This document shows, in pieces, positions 1 through 24,888 of a stretch of 49,068 bases of DNA (positions are counted from its first letter, which is position 1; each line of letters opens with the position of its first letter). Origin of the DNA: Methylotenera sp. GTDB lineage: Bacteria; Pseudomonadota; Gammaproteobacteria; Burkholderiales; Methylophilaceae. The translations under genes were made by a program, and so were the position numbers. The notes beneath the pieces are model-generated. The model did not search any database, had not been told where the DNA came from, and worked only from the letters and a program-made list of their open reading frames with translations. Location: contig JANYCB010000116.1 in assembly GCA_025360485.1 (NCBI GenBank), positions 1-49,068 of the forward strand, written 5' to 3'.

Positions 1-529
1 CATCGTAATCAGCAACACCAGTGGCACTATCATTGAAGCCTAGAATATAGTCGAATGTCCCAAACCCCTCGATATTTTGTCCTGGCATAATCGCAAAACC
101 CAGCACGGAGGTCTGAGCCTGACCATTCGCGAAGGTATGGCCAGCACCGCTGTTATCAGCAAAGCTGAAATTTACTAAACCAGATCCCACCGAGGTAGAA
201 ATAGTTGTTCCGAGCGCATTGGCTTCGAGGAGCGTACCTGCAATATTCAATGTAAACTTATCCACGAATGCACTCTCGTTCCCCAGATATGTCGCAAAAA
301 AAGTACCTGCAGAATCAGTTACCAGAGAGCCAAAAGAACCAGTAGTTTCTGCGCCAGTAACTGTTAGAGGTTGGCCATCGTAGCCAGTAAAGTTTACAGT
401 TGACCCACCATTAATAGATAAAACACCTGCCTGCGCTGTCCCTAGCAAGGTAGAGAGTAAAAGACCGAGCGCAATGCGCCTCATGTCCATACTCAAAACA
501 ACTGCCGTGCATAATTTATTGATTTTCAT
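1..529 (-). CDS. Exported protein, probable PEP-CTERM family, 3' end cut by the window edge
   Basis: An open frame runs without a stop from an ATG at 529 to base 1, so it is missing from the ORF track. The first ~35 residues form a signal peptide (MKINKLCTAVVLSMDMRRIA..LLSTLLGTAQA, cleavage after AQA). The mature part is Gly/Ser/Thr-rich and beta-like. A second in-frame ATG (MRRIALG) is an alternative start. The C-terminal sorting signal lies outside the window, so PEP-CTERM membership is inferred from the two neighbouring genes and from the shared palindrome/promoter block upstream. Function unknown; probably a secreted or surface-retained protein. Confidence 0.7.
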   Translation of the reverse strand, partial: MKINKLCTAVVLSMDMRRIALGLLLSTLLGTAQAGVLSINGGSTVNFTGYDGQPLTVTGAETTGSFGSLVTDSAGTFFATYLGNESAFVDKFTLNIAGTLLEANALGTTISTSVGSGLVNFSFADNSGAGHTFANGQAQTSVLGFAIMPGQNIEGFGTFDYILGFNDSATGVADYD

Positions 530-580
530 TTTACAGCCCCTTAACAACTTACTGAACATATAGCAATTTCAGACGATTAA

Positions 581-625
581 ACATTAAACTTTAATTACTA
601 GGGGCGCAATAGCCCTAAGGAGCTA
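581..625 (-). promoter_or_regulatory. Palindromic operator plus sigma70-like promoter of the first exported-protein gene
   Basis: The palindrome TAGCCCTAAGGAGCTA (610-625) directly abuts a minus-strand -35 TTGCGC (604-609). A 17-bp spacer follows, then a weak -10 TAATGT (581-586). The geometry is identical to that of the two next PEP-CTERM genes, which is what makes this weak promoter credible. The palindrome centre lies near -43 relative to the predicted start, a position typical of class II activators. The regulator is unknown. Confidence 0.55.
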
Positions 626-730
626 ATCTGTTTTGCATAAAGCTTGTGAATGTTGGGGAATATATACCGAAAGAAACTTACACACCTATTGATTAGGTGA
701 ACCTTGCAAACTACAGCCCTAGAGATGGAA

Positions 731-752
731 AACGGGAGCTATGGCTCCCGTT
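731..752 (-). terminator. Stem-loop terminator after the PEP-CTERM gene 779-1438
   Basis: AACGGGAGC and GCTCCCGTT form a 9-bp perfect stem with a 4-base loop, followed on the minus strand by TT. It lies 27 bases past the stop codon. A near-identical stem follows the next PEP-CTERM gene (1723-1742). Confidence 0.75.
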
Positions 753-778
753 AACATTTTTACATTGCCTAGTTTTAC

Positions 779-1438
779 TTAAACTTCATTATTCTTACGA
801 CGACGCACCATGAAACCCATCATACCGATACCAACGAGCATCATGCCATAGGTTTCAGGTTCAGGCACTGCAGCAGCCAAAACAGCATGATTGTCTGTTT
901 CAAAGGCATTATTGATAGACGTAAATTGCACAGTATCAAAGAATTCACCTGAATTCTCAGAGAAAATGTTCCAGTATCTTCCAACACTCTGATTACCGTT
1001 CGGCGGAACCCCTGCAAAACCTGCCAACTCAGTCCCTGTAAATGTTTTAACCAGCGCATCACCATTAAAAAGGCTTATAGAGTTATAGGTATCGGGTGAG
1101 CCACCGTAATAGCCAAAGTAACTAGCCAGAAAGCCAAAAGTAACTGAAGCCGGAGTCGAGGTAGAAGGGCCAACCGTGAAATAGTTTGAAGTATCTAAAG
1201 GTGGTGACGCCCATTGACCAGAAATAGAACCATTTTTAACTCCACCCCCAACATAACCTGCCGGAAGTACTAAGGAAGCATTAAAATCCGTCGTTACAGC
1301 TCCTGCTACAGATGATACCTGACCTTCATTAACTAATGGTGTACCACCAATATTGACTATGAAAGCAGAAGCTGACGTTGCAACGAACATTGCCACCAAC
1401 CCCGTCATAGCAACAATGTATAATTTTTTGGTTTTCAT
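779..1438 (-). CDS. PEP-CTERM sorting domain-containing protein
   Basis: This 219-residue exported protein starts with a signal peptide (about residues 1-25, ending ATSASA) and ends with a PEP-CTERM tail: VPEPETYG, a hydrophobic stretch, then an Arg-rich end (MVRRRKNNEV). By family knowledge such tails are recognised by exosortases, here most likely the XrtB encoded at 19.4-20.3 kb. The body has many Gly, Ser, Thr, Asn and aromatic residues and no enzymatic motif I recognise. The last ~25 residues are almost identical to those of the next gene, but the bodies differ, so the two share a sorting module rather than a function. It has its own palindrome/promoter upstream and terminator downstream, so it is probably monocistronic. 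Confidence 0.93.
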   Translation of the reverse strand: MKTKKLYIVAMTGLVAMFVATSASAFIVNIGGTPLVNEGQVSSVAGAVTTDFNASLVLPAGYVGGGVKNGSISGQWASPPLDTSNYFTVGPSTSTPASVTFGFLASYFGYYGGSPDTYNSISLFNGDALVKTFTGTELAGFAGVPPNGNQSVGRYWNIFSENSGEFFDTVQFTSINNAFETDNHAVLAAAVPEPETYGMMLVGIGMMGFMVRRRKNNEV

Positions 1439-1506
1439 ATTAAACTTATCTTTCTTAACAATCTAATCGAGCATTTCTGCGACTCAAAACTTTACCAATT
1501 GAGCAT

Positions 1507-1551
1507 ATTCTAATCAGGAAATTTTCTTGTTGCAATAGCCCTAAAGAGCTA
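1507..1551 (-). promoter_or_regulatory. Palindromic operator plus sigma70-like promoter of PEP-CTERM gene 779-1438
   Basis: The palindrome TAGCCCTAAAGAGCTA (1536-1551) is followed on the minus strand, without a gap, by -35 TTGCAA (1530-1535). A 17-bp spacer and -10 TAGAAT (1507-1512) come next. The -10 matches TATAAT at five of six positions and the spacing is optimal. I saw no GG-N10-GC sigma54 element here. Confidence 0.65.
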
Positions 1552-1722
1552 ATCAGTTAAGTACAAAATTGTGAAATAAAGTCAGCTATTGACTACATAT
1601 GTCTGATATATAAATGAACTTTGTTCGATCCAATCGTTTCATTCATTTCATTAAATTTCTACCACTACTTACAAAGCTATTAATTAAATTACTTCTGCAA
1701 ACTTGCAGCCCAATAATGAAAA

Positions 1723-1742
1723 ACGGGAGCTAAAGCTCCCGT
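1723..1742 (-). terminator. Stem-loop terminator after PEP-CTERM gene 1769-2377
   Basis: ACGGGAGCT and AGCTCCCGT form a 9-bp perfect stem with a 2-base loop, then TTTTTCA on the minus strand. It lies 26 bases past the stop and closely matches the stem at 731-752. Flanking bases are also similar (TGCAAACT..CAGCCC). Confidence 0.75.
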
Positions 1743-1768
1743 CAGTATTTGCAAATCGATACTTCTAA

Positions 1769-2377
1769 TTAGACTTGTTTATTTTTGCGACGACGCACCA
1801 TGAAACCCATTATGCCGATACCTACTAGCATCATGCCGTATGTTTCTGGTTCGGGTACTGCAGCAAGATTTACATCCGCCAAAATACTGCCCGTGTTGTC
1901 ACCGTTATTGGAATCAAAATAGTAAAGACTCAATACGCTACCTGCCGCTAACCCAGCGAAGCTAGTGCCAATTGTAAAGAATGTACTTGGGCTGGTATCC
2001 CATGCCCCTACTAACGTGCCGAATGGCGCTACCAAGCCATTTTGGCTCCAATTACCGAAACCGCCACCACCAATCACCGTGCCAGCAGCAACACCTGGAT
2101 TATCTCCATTAGTGTCTGCTGCACCTGTAGCCAGCAAATCTGGCGCCTGCTGCCCATCCGCATTGGACCAGCGCGGCAAATCCCCAGAATTCCATAAATC
2201 AAGTAGGTTAACAGATACAGTAAAAGAATCGCCAACTGTAAAAGATAAAGGAACCGTGGCACCTACTCCGCCGGTAGTCGAGTTCTCAAGAGCCTTGACC
2301 TGAACCACTGTAGCCATTGACTGCATCGGGAATGACAGAGCAAGTACTGTTGCAAGACCAATAAGTTTCTTTTGCAT
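1769..2377 (-). CDS. PEP-CTERM sorting domain-containing protein
   Basis: This 202-residue protein has a signal peptide (MQKKLIGLATVLALSFPMQSMA) and a C-terminal PEP-CTERM tail (VPEPETYGMMLVGIG, hydrophobic segment, MVRRRKNKQV). The middle is rich in Gly, Asn and Asp and resembles other beta-rich PEP-CTERM proteins, including phrases typical of that class (VGDSFTVSVNL, SLYYFDSNNG). No catalytic motif is visible. It is probably exported, processed by the exosortase and kept at or released from the cell surface with the polysaccharide. It has its own upstream palindrome/promoter and downstream terminator. Confidence 0.93.
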   Translation of the reverse strand: MQKKLIGLATVLALSFPMQSMATVVQVKALENSTTGGVGATVPLSFTVGDSFTVSVNLLDLWNSGDLPRWSNADGQQAPDLLATGAADTNGDNPGVAAGTVIGGGGFGNWSQNGLVAPFGTLVGAWDTSPSTFFTIGTSFAGLAAGSVLSLYYFDSNNGDNTGSILADVNLAAVPEPETYGMMLVGIGIMGFMVRRRKNKQV

Positions 2378-2418
2378 TTTAAATTCCTTTTCGCCAAAAA
2401 TCCACCGCTCAAGCGTTT

Positions 2419-2463
2419 ATTTTATATTGTATTTTTTTTAATTGCAATAGCCTAAAAGTGCTA
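2419..2463 (-). promoter_or_regulatory. Palindromic operator plus sigma70-like promoter of PEP-CTERM gene 1769-2377
   Basis: The palindrome TAGCCTAAAAGTGCTA (2448-2463) abuts minus-strand -35 TTGCAA (2442-2447). A 17-bp spacer and -10 TAAAAT (2419-2424) follow. It is the third instance of the same arrangement within 2 kb. Confidence 0.6.
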
Positions 2464-18737: not shown

Positions 18738-19418
18738 TTATAAAGTAGTAGTACCTATTAAGCGCTTTCTGTTTTCAGGGGTTATAGATTGTAATAAGGC
18801 TTTTATAAATCCTTCCTGAAGGGGGTATGCACTAGCCTTTTCTCCCAAGCTGGATACGCGAAATAGCATACCGTCTGGCACTTTTCCAGTCAGGCCGTAT
18901 TTTAGTCGCACCAATTTCCATTTAATGCTATTTACTGCTACTGTACCCCCAATATTAATCCAGTAGATAATCGGTTCGAGCCTGCCACCCATTTGAGCTA
19001 CCAATTTCTTCACTGGGATGACGCCGTAACCTGTATCTAAGCCCTCTATTTCAACTTCCAATATCTGAAAACCTTGCCCTGTATAACATACTTCAGGCTT
19101 ATGAACCTGCATGGAATCGCTCTGATCACCACCGTATGCAATTGAAAGCATAACCCGCTCACCACGTTTGTTGATATAGGTTCTAGAGAGCATTTGATTG
19201 TAAATTTTATTTAAAAGCGCCAATCTTTCAGGGTCTGGCTGAAGCGGGATAATAGACTCATCAATTTTCCAATCTGCAAACTGCTTAGGTATCATGCTCT
19301 CGAGGTTTACTTTTGGTCCTTGATCGGCTATATGTTTGGTCGGCTTAAGTACAACCCCACCACAAACGGCAACAATCATGGCCAAGCCAATCAACAAATT
19401 TTTATTTATTGCCGTCAT
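18738..19418 (-). CDS. epsI: EpsI family protein (exosortase B-associated)
   Basis: EpsI (DUF3485) proteins accompany exosortases, sometimes as a fused domain, and their precise role is unsettled. The ORF track begins at 19466 inside the xrtB gene. The ATG at 19418 (MTAINKNLLIGLAMIVAVCGG) starts 7 bases after the xrtB stop and gives 226 residues with an N-terminal signal anchor. Visible EpsI features are the N-terminal P..F..W region (MIPKQFADWKIDE), MLSIAYGGDQSDSMQVHKPEVCYTGQGF and PVKKLVAQMGGRLEPIIYWINIGG. It is probably periplasmic and acts with XrtB. Confidence 0.92.
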   Translation of the reverse strand: MTAINKNLLIGLAMIVAVCGGVVLKPTKHIADQGPKVNLESMIPKQFADWKIDESIIPLQPDPERLALLNKIYNQMLSRTYINKRGERVMLSIAYGGDQSDSMQVHKPEVCYTGQGFQILEVEIEGLDTGYGVIPVKKLVAQMGGRLEPIIYWINIGGTVAVNSIKWKLVRLKYGLTGKVPDGMLFRVSSLGEKASAYPLQEGFIKALLQSITPENRKRLIGTTTL

Positions 19419-19425
19419 CTGTAAG

Positions 19426-20313
19426 TTACTTCGGCTTCTGTGAAGAATGCCAGTATTTATTTGCATATTGTAGTATGGAATCTACACTCATAATCAAGAT
19501 GAGCGCAACGACAAAAAGCACCATACCTGCAAAACCATGCACAAAGCCCTGTCCTGCGGCATCGCCAAAATAGTAGGTTACAAGTGTGAGTACCATTACG
19601 CGAATAACATTAGCTGTGAATGATATTGGTATGATAAAGATGGCCAAAGTGATGTTGCGAAACAGAGAATCGTGCTTAACTAAATTTAGGTAAAGCAAGC
19701 CTAAAGCCTCTAATGAGATAAGGGTATGCATGCCAGCACATGCATTAGCTACCATTAATTGGTACTGGCCAATTTGCAGTATCACACCAGTACGTGCAAT
19801 TGGGTATCCTAACCAGAATAAAATGTTTTCTACTACGTATGAAACGGCCATCTTCATTGGCAAAGTCACCGCATCGATAAAGACACCAGGTAATGGGATC
19901 ATAAAAAGGATGAAAAATAACGGGAACCACATTGCTTTAAGCGCTGGCATACCGCGTGTGAGAAGCAAAATACCTACAATAACAGGGATTTGTGAGCTAA
20001 TATCCAATAAGATAACATCTTGCGAACGGCCTATAACGTAACAGATTAGGCCAAGTGTGAGGAAAATTCCTCCCCAAATAGGCCAAGTGTGGCTTGCAGA
20101 AGTTGGCCGCAGATATGCACGATTTTGCCAAAATAGAAACAATGTCAACATCAGCACAATTGGACCGTGGCGCTGATCCTCACTGTTCCATAGGCCTATA
20201 GAAAGTGCATAATAGATTGGTGCATAGAGAGCAATAAGACCCAACCAAATCGGCCACCACTCTCGCAACCATTCCGGCAATATTTTATGCTGATCAGCTA
20301 GGGTGCTGGTCAT
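19426..20313 (-). CDS. xrtB: Exosortase B
   Basis: XrtB (EpsH) is a polytopic membrane cysteine transpeptidase-like enzyme that cleaves PEP-CTERM tails. About eight hydrophobic segments are visible. The three catalytic positions are present (numbering from the ORF-track start): Cys195 in ANACAGMHTLISL, Arg241 in FTANVIRVMVL and His262 in GFVHGFAGM. RHGPIVLMLTLFLFW near the N-terminus is also typical. The ORF track starts with a GTG at 20322; the ATG at 20313 is equally good and leaves 8 bases after the upstream stop. It lies between epsG and epsI. The PEP-CTERM genes at 0.8-2.4 kb are probable substrates. Confidence 0.96.
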   Translation of the reverse strand: MTSTLADQHKILPEWLREWWPIWLGLIALYAPIYYALSIGLWNSEDQRHGPIVLMLTLFLFWQNRAYLRPTSASHTWPIWGGIFLTLGLICYVIGRSQDVILLDISSQIPVIVGILLLTRGMPALKAMWFPLFFILFMIPLPGVFIDAVTLPMKMAVSYVVENILFWLGYPIARTGVILQIGQYQLMVANACAGMHTLISLEALGLLYLNLVKHDSLFRNITLAIFIIPISFTANVIRVMVLTLVTYYFGDAAGQGFVHGFAGMVLFVVALILIMSVDSILQYANKYWHSSQKPK

Positions 20314-20321
20314 ATCAATCA

Positions 20322-21218
20322 CTAATAATCGTTAATCACGGCACCGACCACAGTAGCTCCAGTAACGGCTATCTGATTGCGCATCTCAGTAATATCTGAG
20401 AGGCGAGTGTGATTAAGCCTCGAAACCAGTAATGCCCCACCACAACGTGCAACCGTCACTTGAGCATCTGCACTGTTATTCGCAGGGGCCGCATCGACAA
20501 GAATGACATCATATTTGCTCTTGGTGTAGTTTAAAAAATGTGAAAAACGGAGGCGGTTTAGCAGCTCTTGAGGATTAGGAGGTGGGGTGCCGGCACCGAG
20601 TACAGAAAGATCTTCAAAATACGGCACCTTGCTGACAACATCTATACCTGCACGGCCCGCAATGATATCCGAAAGCCCACGGCTTTGTATCAGGTTAAAT
20701 ATCTTATGCTGCCGCGGAGCACGCATATTGGCATCAACCAACAGCGTGCGCTCGCCCAGCTGTGAGAACATTACCGCCAGGTTGGCCGCCAAGTAACTGA
20801 CACCCTCACCACCAGAAGAGCTAACGATAGCTAAGGACTTATTTCTTTCGTTGAACCAGCGCATCATAAGTTGGCTTCGCAGGGCGCGCAAAGCTTCTAC
20901 CTGTTTACTGAAAGGTTGGTAGGCAGCCACGAGTTCTTCACTATAATTACCTTGGCCAGTTTGTAGGTATGGGTAGCTGAATTGCAGCGCGAGCACTTGA
21001 CTGATATCAGCCTGAGTAATTAGGCCAAGCTTCAGCGCAGCATCACCAAATAACATACCTGTCTCTTGCTGAACACGGAGAATTTTATCCGTGTCCTCAA
21101 AGGATATTTTGCCTAGCTGCAGCAGCAACCGCCCAATTTTCCCTGCGCGCTCTTGATCCCTGGAGACTGACGAATTTAAAAGTGAAAGATTTTTATCTTG
21201 CGACGACATATTCTTCAT
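20322..21218 (-). CDS. epsG: EpsG-like chain-length tyrosine-kinase-type ATPase
   Basis: This 298-residue protein has two parts. Residues ~25-90 resemble the GspE/MshE N-terminal domain (LLLQLGKISFEDTDKIL..ALKLGLITQADISQVLALQF). Residues ~105-298 resemble the BY-kinase/MinD-like ATPase partner of Wzz proteins (SSSGGEGVSYLAANLAVMFSQLGERTLLVDANMRAPRQHKIF and VILVDAAP). The P-loop Lys is missing: the sequence reads GEGVS where GxGKS/T is normal. There is also no C-terminal tyrosine cluster. It probably regulates polymer length with EpsF. It overlaps epsF by four bases (ATGA). Confidence 0.9.
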   Translation of the reverse strand: MKNMSSQDKNLSLLNSSVSRDQERAGKIGRLLLQLGKISFEDTDKILRVQQETGMLFGDAALKLGLITQADISQVLALQFSYPYLQTGQGNYSEELVAAYQPFSKQVEALRALRSQLMMRWFNERNKSLAIVSSSGGEGVSYLAANLAVMFSQLGERTLLVDANMRAPRQHKIFNLIQSRGLSDIIAGRAGIDVVSKVPYFEDLSVLGAGTPPPNPQELLNRLRFSHFLNYTKSKYDVILVDAAPANNSADAQVTVARCGGALLVSRLNHTRLSDITEMRNQIAVTGATVVGAVINDY

Positions 21219-22618
21219 ACCACCTTAAGCAGACGGTTTGACAATTGCGTAAGCTGCCCACCACTTTTTTGGGTGGGCTTAGGACCAATCATAGTGAATA
21301 CTGGTATTTCGAGCAGATTGCTGAGGTCGTCTCGGCTGCGCACTCGTCTGTCCATCATTTCAGCGAGCAGTGCAAGACAGAGTCCTACTATAGTACCCAG
21401 TATTATGGATAACAGGATATTATAGAAAACCTTTGGACTTGCTGGACTCTGTGGAGGAGTGGCAGGGTTAAGCACAGCCACATCGGTTTGATTTGCATTG
21501 CCTTCAATTGAAGCCTGTGTGAAGCGCTGACTGGCAGCGTCCATGGCGTGCTGAGCATTCTCCACATCCCGCTGCAGCACAGAGAGCTCATCCCTTGAGA
21601 GATTAAGCTCTAGTACACGCGCTTTCTGGGCGGCCAATGCGGCTTTTAGTTGGGCCTCACGCTGTTGGTAAATACGTGCGGTACCGCCAATACTGCTGCT
21701 GACATTGCGAGTTTCCTGTTGCAACAGATTTTTAAGCTTATCCAGCTCTTCTTTTGAGGCTTGGTATTGTGGGTGATTTTCCCCTACGCGCTGTGATAGC
21801 TCTGAAAGTTTGGATTCTGCACGAGAAATATCAACCTTTAAATTCTGCACAACTGGGTTAGCTGTTACGTCTGGAGAGGCTAATCCATTGCCGCCGGCGC
21901 TTTGTTGGCGCGATGTGGATTCAATAGCTTGTGACTGTGCAGCGACCAACTGTGCAGAGAGGTCATTCAAACGGGTATTTTCTACGTCCAGACTACTCGT
22001 TATATTGGTCAGCCCTTTTTCTTGCTGATATTTTGAAATCTTGGCTTGAGCCGTTTCTAAATTCGCACGCAGCTCTTTGGTCTGCTGTCCCAAAAAACTT
22101 GCTGCCTTTTGTGCAGGATCAACCTTGAGCTTAAGGCTGGTTTGGATATAGGCATTTGCAAAGCCGTTCGCTACGGCAGCAGCAAACTCGGGATCAGCAC
22201 CAGTGAAAGAAATTTCAATGACGCTACTTTCACGTGATGGTTTGACATCTAATCCTTGCAGCAGCCGATCCGCAAACCAGGTATGAATATCGCCTTTACC
22301 TTTGGTAGCATTATCAAACTGCTTTTGCGCAGCAGTACTTTCGGTGAATTTAAGTTGATCGACAACCTTGATGGCAACGTTGCGACTGGTGATGATGTCG
22401 TTCTGAGTGGCCATATAACCAGGCATTAATTGCGCTGGCAAAACAACACCTGTCACTGGGTCCATACCCTTATAGTTAAGCACCAGAGAAGTGGTTGCTG
22501 TGTAGGTTTTAGGAAGAGATAAACTGACAATGACCGTTGCCAGCACGATCAGGGAAAATGTAATTAATATGATCTTGTAGCGAGCTCTCAGAATGAGCAA
22601 AAACTGAGTGAAATTCAT
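21215..22618 (-). CDS. epsF: Chain-length determinant protein EpsF (Wzz/PCP family)
   Basis: This 467-residue polysaccharide co-polymerase has a membrane segment at ~residues 15-35 (RYKIILITFSLIVLATVIVSL) and a long periplasmic part with coiled-coil helices (~165-370). A Pro-rich stretch (LNPATPPQSPASPKVF) precedes the second membrane segment (~400-420). The C-terminal cytoplasmic tail includes RRVRSRDDLSNLLEIPVFTMIG. It sets polymer length and links the inner membrane assembly to the EpsE export pore. It is 8 bases after epsE and overlaps epsG. Confidence 0.94.
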   Translation of the reverse strand: MNFTQFLLILRARYKIILITFSLIVLATVIVSLSLPKTYTATTSLVLNYKGMDPVTGVVLPAQLMPGYMATQNDIITSRNVAIKVVDQLKFTESTAAQKQFDNATKGKGDIHTWFADRLLQGLDVKPSRESSVIEISFTGADPEFAAAVANGFANAYIQTSLKLKVDPAQKAASFLGQQTKELRANLETAQAKISKYQQEKGLTNITSSLDVENTRLNDLSAQLVAAQSQAIESTSRQQSAGGNGLASPDVTANPVVQNLKVDISRAESKLSELSQRVGENHPQYQASKEELDKLKNLLQQETRNVSSSIGGTARIYQQREAQLKAALAAQKARVLELNLSRDELSVLQRDVENAQHAMDAASQRFTQASIEGNANQTDVAVLNPATPPQSPASPKVFYNILLSIILGTIVGLCLALLAEMMDRRVRSRDDLSNLLEIPVFTMIGPKPTQKSGGQLTQLSNRLLKVV

Positions 22619-22626
22619 GTGCGTTC

Positions 22627-23685
22627 CTAGAACAGACTTTCTTGAACGTATAGTACATCATCTGGCTGTATAGGATCGCTCAGCGCAGGATGTAACTCTA
22701 GCGTATCACCCTTAGCATTGCGGCGATTGAGTTTAATATTGCGTTGCGTGCCACGCAAAGTAGGGCCACCCCCTTGCGCAAGCGCCTGCATTACGGTCAT
22801 ACCACGCTCGATACGATAAGAGCCTGGGCGCTGCGCTTCACCATAGATATAGAACATGGGTGCATGTGGTACATAAATGCTATCACCACTCGCCAATTCT
22901 ATATTGGCAGCGTTATCCCCTGTGCGAAACAGGCTGTCGACATCCACATCAAAGCGATTGATTTTGCCATCTCTTACCGTGGTAACTGTAATCGTGTCTG
23001 AACCTGTGGGGCTTACGCCGCCAGCAACGCTAAGAAAATCAGCCACGGTACGTACGCCGCCGACAACAGCGTATTTACCTGGGCGCAGCACCTGACCCAT
23101 CACTGAGATATCACGTGAATGTACAAAAACAACCTCTCCGCCAGAGAGAATGATGCCCTTCATACCGTCGGCTTTACCCACAATCTTCTGCAAGTCGTAT
23201 TCGACCTTACCAGTTGCACTGACGATAGTCACCAGATCAGACCCATCCGGCGTTACACCACCAACGAGCGCGAGCAAATCTGCGAGATTTGTTGTCCGCT
23301 CAAGTGGATAACGTCCAGGCTTAAAAACGCTGCCTAATACGGAAACCAACTTACTTTGAAACTGTGTCACTAGGATATTAACTTGAGGCTTCTTTATGAA
23401 GCTCCCTTTTTCCAGTAAATCTGCAATTCTCTTTTCTGCAGCAAACGTGGACATTCCGCCAATTTTGACTTGGCCAATCAATGGGAAGCTAATAATATCG
23501 CCTTCTGCAATCCGCGTTTCGAGTGTTAGGTCGGGATTATTGAACACGGTAATCTTTACCAAATCACCTGCACCTAAGACATAGTTGGGTTCTTGTGCCG
23601 AAACGGTATTCAGCCAAGCTCCCATTATCAAAGCCATGATGCATGTTAAAAAGTATCTCATTATTTTACCTACCATTTTCACCAT
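22627..23685 (-). CDS. epsE: Polysaccharide export protein EpsE (Wza family)
   Basis: This 352-residue exported protein has a signal peptide (ending NTVSA before QEPNYVLGAGD) and the Poly_export domain (VLGAGDLVKITVFNNPDLTLETRIAEGDIISFPLIGQVKIGG). Three SLBB-like repeats follow: KLVSVLGSVFKPGRYPL, ISVMGQVLRPGKYAV and FYIYGEAQRPGSYRI. It is the periplasmic/outer-membrane export channel component for EPS. No lipobox cysteine is seen, unlike E. coli Wza. A later start at MRYFLTC (residue 9) is possible. Confidence 0.95.
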   Translation of the reverse strand: MVKMVGKIMRYFLTCIMALIMGAWLNTVSAQEPNYVLGAGDLVKITVFNNPDLTLETRIAEGDIISFPLIGQVKIGGMSTFAAEKRIADLLEKGSFIKKPQVNILVTQFQSKLVSVLGSVFKPGRYPLERTTNLADLLALVGGVTPDGSDLVTIVSATGKVEYDLQKIVGKADGMKGIILSGGEVVFVHSRDISVMGQVLRPGKYAVVGGVRTVADFLSVAGGVSPTGSDTITVTTVRDGKINRFDVDVDSLFRTGDNAANIELASGDSIYVPHAPMFYIYGEAQRPGSYRIERGMTVMQALAQGGGPTLRGTQRNIKLNRRNAKGDTLELHPALSDPIQPDDVLYVQESLF

Positions 23686-23743: not shown

Positions 23744-24769
23744 TTACAGACCAGACAAACCCTTCTCGATGTGACTTTCAACCTTACCATTGTCTGGTGA
23801 CTTTGCGACATCTGCAGCATTAGTTGGTTCAGTAGTGGTAACCTGTTTTTCTTGCTCAGTGGGCTTAGCGGCTTGAGGACTTGCATTGGTACCAGCGATA
23901 GCGGCATATTTCTTATCGATGTATTCAATCTTGGCAATACTGCGTAGGCGCGCTAATTCAGCCTCAGCTGATTGTTTGCGCTTCTGTCCAGAAAGTATGC
24001 GTTCTATTAGCGGTTTTGAGTCTGACTCGGAGATGGGCAAGTCCTTTATTTCATTTATGCGACCAACTACAATGCGACCGTTGGAGTTGATGAAAATTAA
24101 ATCGCCGACAACCATTTTGGAAAGCTTGCTGAGTAATTCTGGCGGTAATGATTCTGCCGCATGTGCCGCCTGGGCGCGAGCGTACTTGATTTGATGCGCT
24201 CCCAACCATTGCGTCACATTTTCCAACGCCTTGGCCGAATCGCTCAGCGTCTGAAGCTCTTGGGCATTGCCCGCCTCGATTGCAAATGCCAGCTCATCCA
24301 TCACGTAAATCTTGCGATTCGCAAAAATATTTGGATTTTTGGTACGATAATCAGTGATTTCAGCCTCTGTCGGCTTGGCTAATGAGGAGACTTTATCTTC
24401 AAGGTAAGCTTGAGCAAGAATCTGCATCTTGGCATTTTCAATGGCTTGCATCACGCGCGGATTGCGATCTAACTTAGTTTTGAGCGCTTCCTGAACAAGA
24501 ATCTGGCGATCTAAAAGTCTCTGCGCAATCTGTTTCCCAGCTTCCTCCTGTTGGCCAGGCTGAATATGAGCGCGCTGGAGTTCATCATTAAGTTGGAGTA
24601 CTGTAATTTCATCATCATTGACACGTATGATTGACTGACTAGCTTTTTCTTCGCTATTCTTTTTACCGCAAGAAGTCATTAAGCCGAGGATTACAAGCAT
24701 AAGCGCGACTTTAGCAATTCGATCGAACGGTGTAGCGAACAAACGCTTTGTTTCGTAGTTCATTAGCAT
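23744..24769 (-). CDS. epsD: EpsD family peptidyl-prolyl cis-trans isomerase lipoprotein
   Basis: This 341-residue SurA/parvulin-like protein is a predicted lipoprotein with lipobox LMTSC (Cys34). The SurA-like N-terminal region (IIRVNDDEITVLQLNDELQR, LDRQILVQEALKTKLDRNPRVMQAIENAKMQILAQAYLEDKV) and a PPIase-like region (~160-280) follow, then a Pro/Thr/Lys tail without homology. It probably helps fold or assemble the export machinery in the periplasm. The start may be the second ATG (MNYETKR). A palindrome like those of the PEP-CTERM genes lies about 100 bases upstream. Confidence 0.9.
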   Translation of the reverse strand: MLMNYETKRLFATPFDRIAKVALMLVILGLMTSCGKKNSEEKASQSIIRVNDDEITVLQLNDELQRAHIQPGQQEEAGKQIAQRLLDRQILVQEALKTKLDRNPRVMQAIENAKMQILAQAYLEDKVSSLAKPTEAEITDYRTKNPNIFANRKIYVMDELAFAIEAGNAQELQTLSDSAKALENVTQWLGAHQIKYARAQAAHAAESLPPELLSKLSKMVVGDLIFINSNGRIVVGRINEIKDLPISESDSKPLIERILSGQKRKQSAEAELARLRSIAKIEYIDKKYAAIAGTNASPQAAKPTEQEKQVTTTEPTNAADVAKSPDNGKVESHIEKGLSGL

Positions 24770-24872: not shown

Positions 24873-24888
24873 TAGCCTGTAAGGGCTA
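24873..24888 (-). promoter_or_regulatory. Fourth copy of the PEP-CTERM-type palindrome, upstream of epsD
   Basis: TAGCCTGTAAGGGCTA is a clean inverted repeat (TAGCC..GGCTA). It matches the pattern TAGCc-N6-GGCTA/GAGCTA found upstream of the three exported-protein genes at 0.5-2.5 kb. It overlaps the stop codon of the TIGR03790-type gene and lies in the 116-base gap before epsD. The -35/-10 spacing of the other copies is not preserved here, so promoter linkage is less sure. Confidence 0.5.

Follow-up and report, generated by a model that had tools for sequence, protein, structure and literature searches.

A shared box and promoter geometry

At one end of the window (the whole 49,068-nt stretch of DNA analysed here) three genes for exported proteins are each preceded by a 16-bp palindrome, which raises the question of what regulator acts there and whether it belongs to the PrsK/PrsR system with sigma54, the only control of PEP-CTERM genes that we found published in the literature searched. 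The initial annotation had described the three palindromes together with a TTG-type -35, a 17-bp spacer and a -10, and its sequences and coordinates proved exact (Table 1). In all three cases, on the minus strand, the -35 adjoins the box without a gap and a 17-bp spacer leads to the -10. To these can be added a fourth box in the window, which lies in front of epsD, together with further boxes on four other contigs. The fourth has no adjoining TTG and its core promoter is less clear than those of boxes 1-3; downstream of it, on the same strand, the run from epsE to epsI scores over the cut-offs of TIGR03028, TIGR03017, TIGR03029, TIGR03113 and NF045609. The first TAG of box 4 doubles as the stop codon of the TIGR03790 gene that precedes it.

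Table 1. Boxes, predicted core promoters and genes in the window
Feature	Position	Strand	Details
Exported protein, 186 aa seen	2-559	-	truncated at contig end; C-terminus and any sorting signal lie outside
Core promoter of box 1 (predicted sigma70)	581-609	-	TTGCGC 604-609, 17-bp spacer, TAATGT 581-586
Box 1, TAGCTCCTTAGGGCTA on gene strand	610-625	-	precedes exported-protein gene 2-559
PEP-CTERM protein, 219 aa	779-1438	-	PF07589 E=2e-9; TIGR02595 over cut-off
Core promoter of box 2 (predicted)	1507-1535	-	TTGCAA 1530-1535, 17 bp, TAGAAT 1507-1512
Box 2, TAGCTCTTTAGGGCTA	1536-1551	-	precedes PEP-CTERM gene 779-1438
PEP-CTERM protein, 202 aa	1769-2377	-	PF07589 E=3e-9; TIGR02595 over cut-off
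Core promoter of box 3 (predicted)	2419-2447	-	TTGCAA 2442-2447, 17 bp, TAAAAT 2419-2424
Box 3, TAGCACTTTTAGGCTA	2448-2463	-	precedes PEP-CTERM gene 1769-2377
epsE, epsF, epsG, xrtB (19426-20322), epsI	18738-23685	-	XrtB exosortase and polysaccharide export genes
epsD, EpsD-family peptidyl-prolyl isomerase	23744-24769	-	heads eps-xrtB gene run; TIGR02925 over cut-off
Box 4, TAGCCCTTACAGGCTA	24873-24888	-	103 bp upstream of epsD start

The core box reads TAGYCCG-WW-CGGRCTA, a 7-2-7 layout, and takes mostly the form TAGCnC-N5-GGCTA in this genome. It has the placing of a class II-type operator, an inverted repeat at a fixed position by the -35, its centre falling about 43-44 bp before the predicted start sites and so inside the -42 to -45 range of such operators. 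The adjoining promoters fit the sigma70 type, for which a spacing of 16-18 bp between the hexamers is expected: they stand at a fixed distance from the box, and the gap between -35 and -10 is 17 bp in the three promoters of the window and peaks at 16-17 bp in an independent set described below. The shared operator and promoter geometry is well supported. Tandem or recent duplication of the three promoters is ruled out by their diverged flanks, which are 35-47% identical when aligned in register, and strong alignment between the proteins encoded at 779-1438 and 1769-2377 is confined to their PEP-CTERM tails. When considering the window alone, TAGCN8GCTA has 4 matches compared to 0.78 +/- 0.89 in shuffled sequences, and since 1 of 100 shuffles also reached 4, this enrichment is no more than suggestive; the decisive evidence comes from the genome and its relatives.

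The box in the genome, the family and the order

We searched the genome assembly (2.0 Mb, 164 contigs, 86% complete) with TAGYNCN5GRCTATT, which occurs at 8 places (9 matches, one place being matched on both strands) compared to 2 for a reversed-pattern control. Four of these places are in the window and one each is on contigs C36, C135, C11 and C84. The genome has four PEP-CTERM genes over the TIGR02595 cut-off (two in the window, the others on C36 and C135), and a box lies directly upstream of 4/4. On C11 the gene downstream of the box encodes a 97-aa exported protein with a hydrophobic tail, and a gene for polysaccharide export comes next. Two further observations concern the surroundings of these sites. 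Just upstream of the C11 box, which is perfect, lies a second EpsA-like C-terminus, cut by the contig end (G000:C11:32124-32323; L036). The C84 box (TAGTCCGAACGGGCTATTG; G000:C84:23023-23038, L215) stands directly after a gene for a NarL-type response regulator and before an exported ORF that is oxidase-like by reading of its sequence.

A similar picture emerges for relatives. Across 187 genomes of the family Methylophilaceae, TAGCNCN5GGCTATTG gave 58 matches compared to 1 for the reversed pattern, and many of the sites precede genes ending in PEP-CTERM or VPxPA-type (VPxPA-CTERM) sorting signals. A strict automatic filter for such signals accepted 17 of the 53 distinct family sites, a count that misses various visibly similar tails. 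Enrichment upstream of PEP-CTERM genes, which the initial annotation had proposed as a test of its reading, is found in the genome, in the family and in other families, and the 16-bp box is common to promoters of sorted surface-protein genes across many Betaproteobacteria. Genus g15 (L072-L077, L082-L084, L087, L099-L101) has the box before a lipoprotein, a conserved short cytosolic protein and others; the regulon may reach beyond sorted proteins, unless part of these sites are unrelated. An uncultured Methylobacillus carries four identical boxes, TAGTCCGTTCGGACTA, in series before a PEP-CTERM gene, with starts 135-158 bp apart (L234:11911-12356). In genome G442 the site TAGTCCAAACGGGCTA recurs identically at least 8 times, alongside several similar ones, over many contigs, which could represent a large regulon or a repeat.

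EpsA as a candidate regulator

The genome encodes EpsA (TIGR03020, over cut-off) at C11:5515-6231. The protein is over cut-off in 81 of the 187 family genomes, or in 83 at E<=1e-30, and the box is found in 32/83 EpsA-positive family genomes compared to 5/104 EpsA-negative ones (Fisher p=5e-9, with shared ancestry ignored). In other families of the order the corresponding figures for TAGTCCN4GGRCTA are 23/58 and 25/280 genomes (p=6e-8, again ignoring shared ancestry). The exact form TAGCCCN4GGGCTA was rejected as an order-wide marker owing to its weaker association (11/58 compared to 17/280, p=0.003), which reflects the use of TAGTCC by other families. A candidate regulator with a GerE helix-turn-helix is thus encoded in the genome and co-occurs with the box, with two exceptions: in G163 (93% complete) three boxes stand ahead of genes with tails of the sorting type and EpsA was not detected, and G034 (99% complete) has one box, with neither EpsA nor an exosortase detected.

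The box also tends to lie close to the epsA gene. It is found within about 1 kb of epsA, mostly at less than 300 bp, in G393, G298, G346, G053, G062, G054 and G202, and boxes close to epsA are seen in other families (G387, G301, G197, G202 and others). In G387, for instance, three boxes fall within 7 kb of epsA, and for two of these the gene that directly follows has a PEP-type tail or is a neighbour of such a gene.

To look at these surroundings independently of the window, we took 80 epsA loci with named hosts, selected by EpsA alone, and counted every 6-4-6 palindrome. The half-site TAGTCC (variant TAGTCCN4GGACTA) ranked first, with 16 sites compared to at most 1 for each other of 180 permutations. 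The strict box has 29 sites in this set and 0 in reversed sequence, and a relaxed box 43 compared to 3. The start of a gene with a sorting signal lies within 400 bp of 23 of the 43 boxes, compared to 95 of 3000 random positions; TTG adjoins on the gene side in 14/23 and on the opposite side in 1/23, with a peak of TAnnnT 16-17 bp from the TTGnnn hexamer. In 52 of the 80 loci no box was found in the flanking DNA covered. Since the loci were selected by EpsA, this set speaks for co-localisation and not for binding. In Rhodoferax and Methylovorus boxes are found in the region upstream of epsA, which suggests autoregulation, and epsA itself is probably under control of the box in several species.

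The architecture of EpsA fits such a role. A domain search identifies a GerE domain, CviR is the best solved relative by sequence profile, with QscR and SdiA also among the closest by sequence, and the AlphaFold model (mean pLDDT 84, pTM 0.64, with confident domains in a poorly fixed arrangement) matches CviR, QscR, SdiA and TraR over both domains. Domain search, profile and model thus agree on a LuxR-type receptor, with a quorum-receptor ligand-binding fold joined to a GerE helix-turn-helix. EpsA can be named with fair confidence as the putative regulator; as the binder of the box it is proposed from co-occurrence and gene proximity. We found no published operator or target sequence for EpsA in the literature searched. 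What is new here is the operator and its regulon, the EpsA family TIGR03020 being already known.

Discussion

We consider it likely that TAGYCC-N4-GGRCTA, in its 7-2-7 layout, is the operator of EpsA and that EpsA activates from beside the -35 of a sigma70 promoter. A dimer of this protein, whose N-terminal domain is quorum-receptor-like and whose helix-turn-helix is of the GerE/LuxR kind, would bind both half-sites about 43-44 bp upstream of the predicted start, touch a sub-optimal -35 (TTGCRN at most sites here) and recruit sigma70 RNA polymerase. The result would be that PEP-CTERM/VPxPA-CTERM surface proteins are expressed together with the eps-xrtB genes for export and sorting, and probably with epsA in several species; the box is indeed found upstream of both PEP-CTERM/VPxPA substrate genes and eps genes. 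Both the direction of control, activation, and the sensing of a signal by EpsA are inferred. The original proposal, an operator for a dimeric regulator that is centred some 43 bp before the start and serves a sigma70-type promoter apart from PrsK/PrsR-sigma54, is supported by the enrichment of the box upstream of PEP-CTERM genes, by the lack of PrsR over its cut-off in the genome and by the search for -24/-12 elements near the boxes, which gave no good match.

More broadly, we lean towards a picture in which EpsA is a signal-responsive orphan quorum-type receptor and the TAGYCC-N4-GGRCTA regulon joins exopolysaccharide export, XrtB and surface substrates across Betaproteobacteria, forming a second, sigma70-based route parallel to PrsKR-sigma54. 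If this is true, control in genomes without PrsR would be explained by a second route of wide occurrence, for which the operator is defined and a candidate regulator has been named. The box would also serve as a marker for exosortase substrates that is independent of the C-terminal motif, and the signal for surface-protein and exopolysaccharide production would become testable through EpsA.

Alternative explanations

The operator may be real and shared by the PEP-CTERM and eps promoters with a binder other than EpsA, namely another LuxR/NarL-type protein inherited together with EpsA, such as an orphan response regulator. The boxes before sorted-protein genes in G163 and G034, where EpsA is not detectable, would be accounted for in this way, the 7-2-7 layout is also used by NarL-type response regulators, and the genome encodes several LuxR-HTH proteins, with one response regulator directly before the C84 box. 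Additionally, since PEP-CTERM genes are concentrated around epsA, the box might be bound by some other regulator inherited alongside. However, the association of the box with EpsA extends across several families and includes proximity to epsA, and an unsystematic look turned up no other regulator whose occurrence follows the box; we regard a different binder as unlikely.

EpsA might instead repress from the same operator, its dimer by the -35 blocking polymerase until released by a signal. A position near the -35 is compatible with repression, and QscR, a structural relative of EpsA, is titled quorum-sensing control repressor in the PDB. However, the box adjoins the core promoter in a fixed register and does not cover it, and the weak -35 elements (TTGCGC, TTGCAA) are as expected for activator-dependent promoters, which makes repression a rather improbable reading.

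The known PEP-CTERM regulatory system has an obvious claim to these promoters, as sigma54 motifs were reported upstream of the majority of PEP-CTERM genes in proteobacteria (PMC1569441) and dependence on RpoN was shown for pepA of Aquincola (PMC9850573). In that system motif 1, ending in TTTACA, lies about 63 bp before the sigma54 motif 2, and PrsK, PrsR and PrsT match the motif in profile (Haft et al. 2006; PMC1569441); our box differs from motif 1. PrsR was not found over its curated cut-off in the genome, at 86% completeness (best 408 compared to 502.6 bits), nor in any other tested member of the genus, and it was rejected as the regulator of the box on that ground. We found no good match to a -24(GG)/-12(GC) element (GG-N10-GC) near the boxes. 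The TTGC next to the box could itself be taken for a sigma54 -12 element, but no GG stands at -24, and after many of the boxes the letters are TTGA or TTGT instead. Since neither PrsR over its cut-off nor a good -24/-12 element turned up, control by the known sigma54 route is unlikely in this genome, and that the boxes are PrsR/sigma54 sites is very hard to credit.

That the palindromes are repeats, terminators or chance matches spread by duplication of neighbouring genes is likewise highly improbable, for though enrichment in the window is modest, the many near-identical copies in G442 may be a repeat of that genome and hairpins could account for some GC-rich sites elsewhere (G202), the box keeps its position in front of unrelated genes, on separate contigs and in separate families, between flanks that have diverged, the family search strongly favours the true pattern over its control, and a terminator or hairpin does not fit a site next to a -35.

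Comparison with known systems

Like the PrsK/PrsR element (PMC1569441), the box is a conserved upstream sequence, found by co-occurrence, through which PEP-CTERM genes are connected with a dedicated regulator encoded close to eps genes. It differs in sequence and in being a single palindrome that adjoins a sigma70-type promoter, rather than an upstream site combined with a -24/-12 element, and the candidate regulator is the LuxR-type EpsA where that of the PrsK/PrsR system is NtrC-like.

The placing is familiar from the lux box, an inverted repeat for LuxR centred at -42.5 (PMC3376562), and EpsA resembles the LuxR-type quorum receptors CviR, QscR and SdiA in both domains. The box, however, is 16 bp long and of other sequence, compared to 20 bp for the lux box, and binding of acyl-homoserine lactones is not known for EpsA.

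The nearest likeness in layout is to NarL, whose 7-2-7 sites at yeaR and ogt of E. coli lie just upstream of, or adjoin, the -35, the ogt site being centred at -44.5 (PMC7419079). NarL operators are, like the box, 16-bp inverted repeats of two 7-mers 2 bp apart, bound by a dimer with a GerE-type helix-turn-helix, EpsA being the candidate for this part at the box. The two differ in the half-site, TAGYCCN as against the NarL 7-mer, and in the proposed regulator, EpsA having a LuxR-like ligand domain where NarL has a receiver domain.
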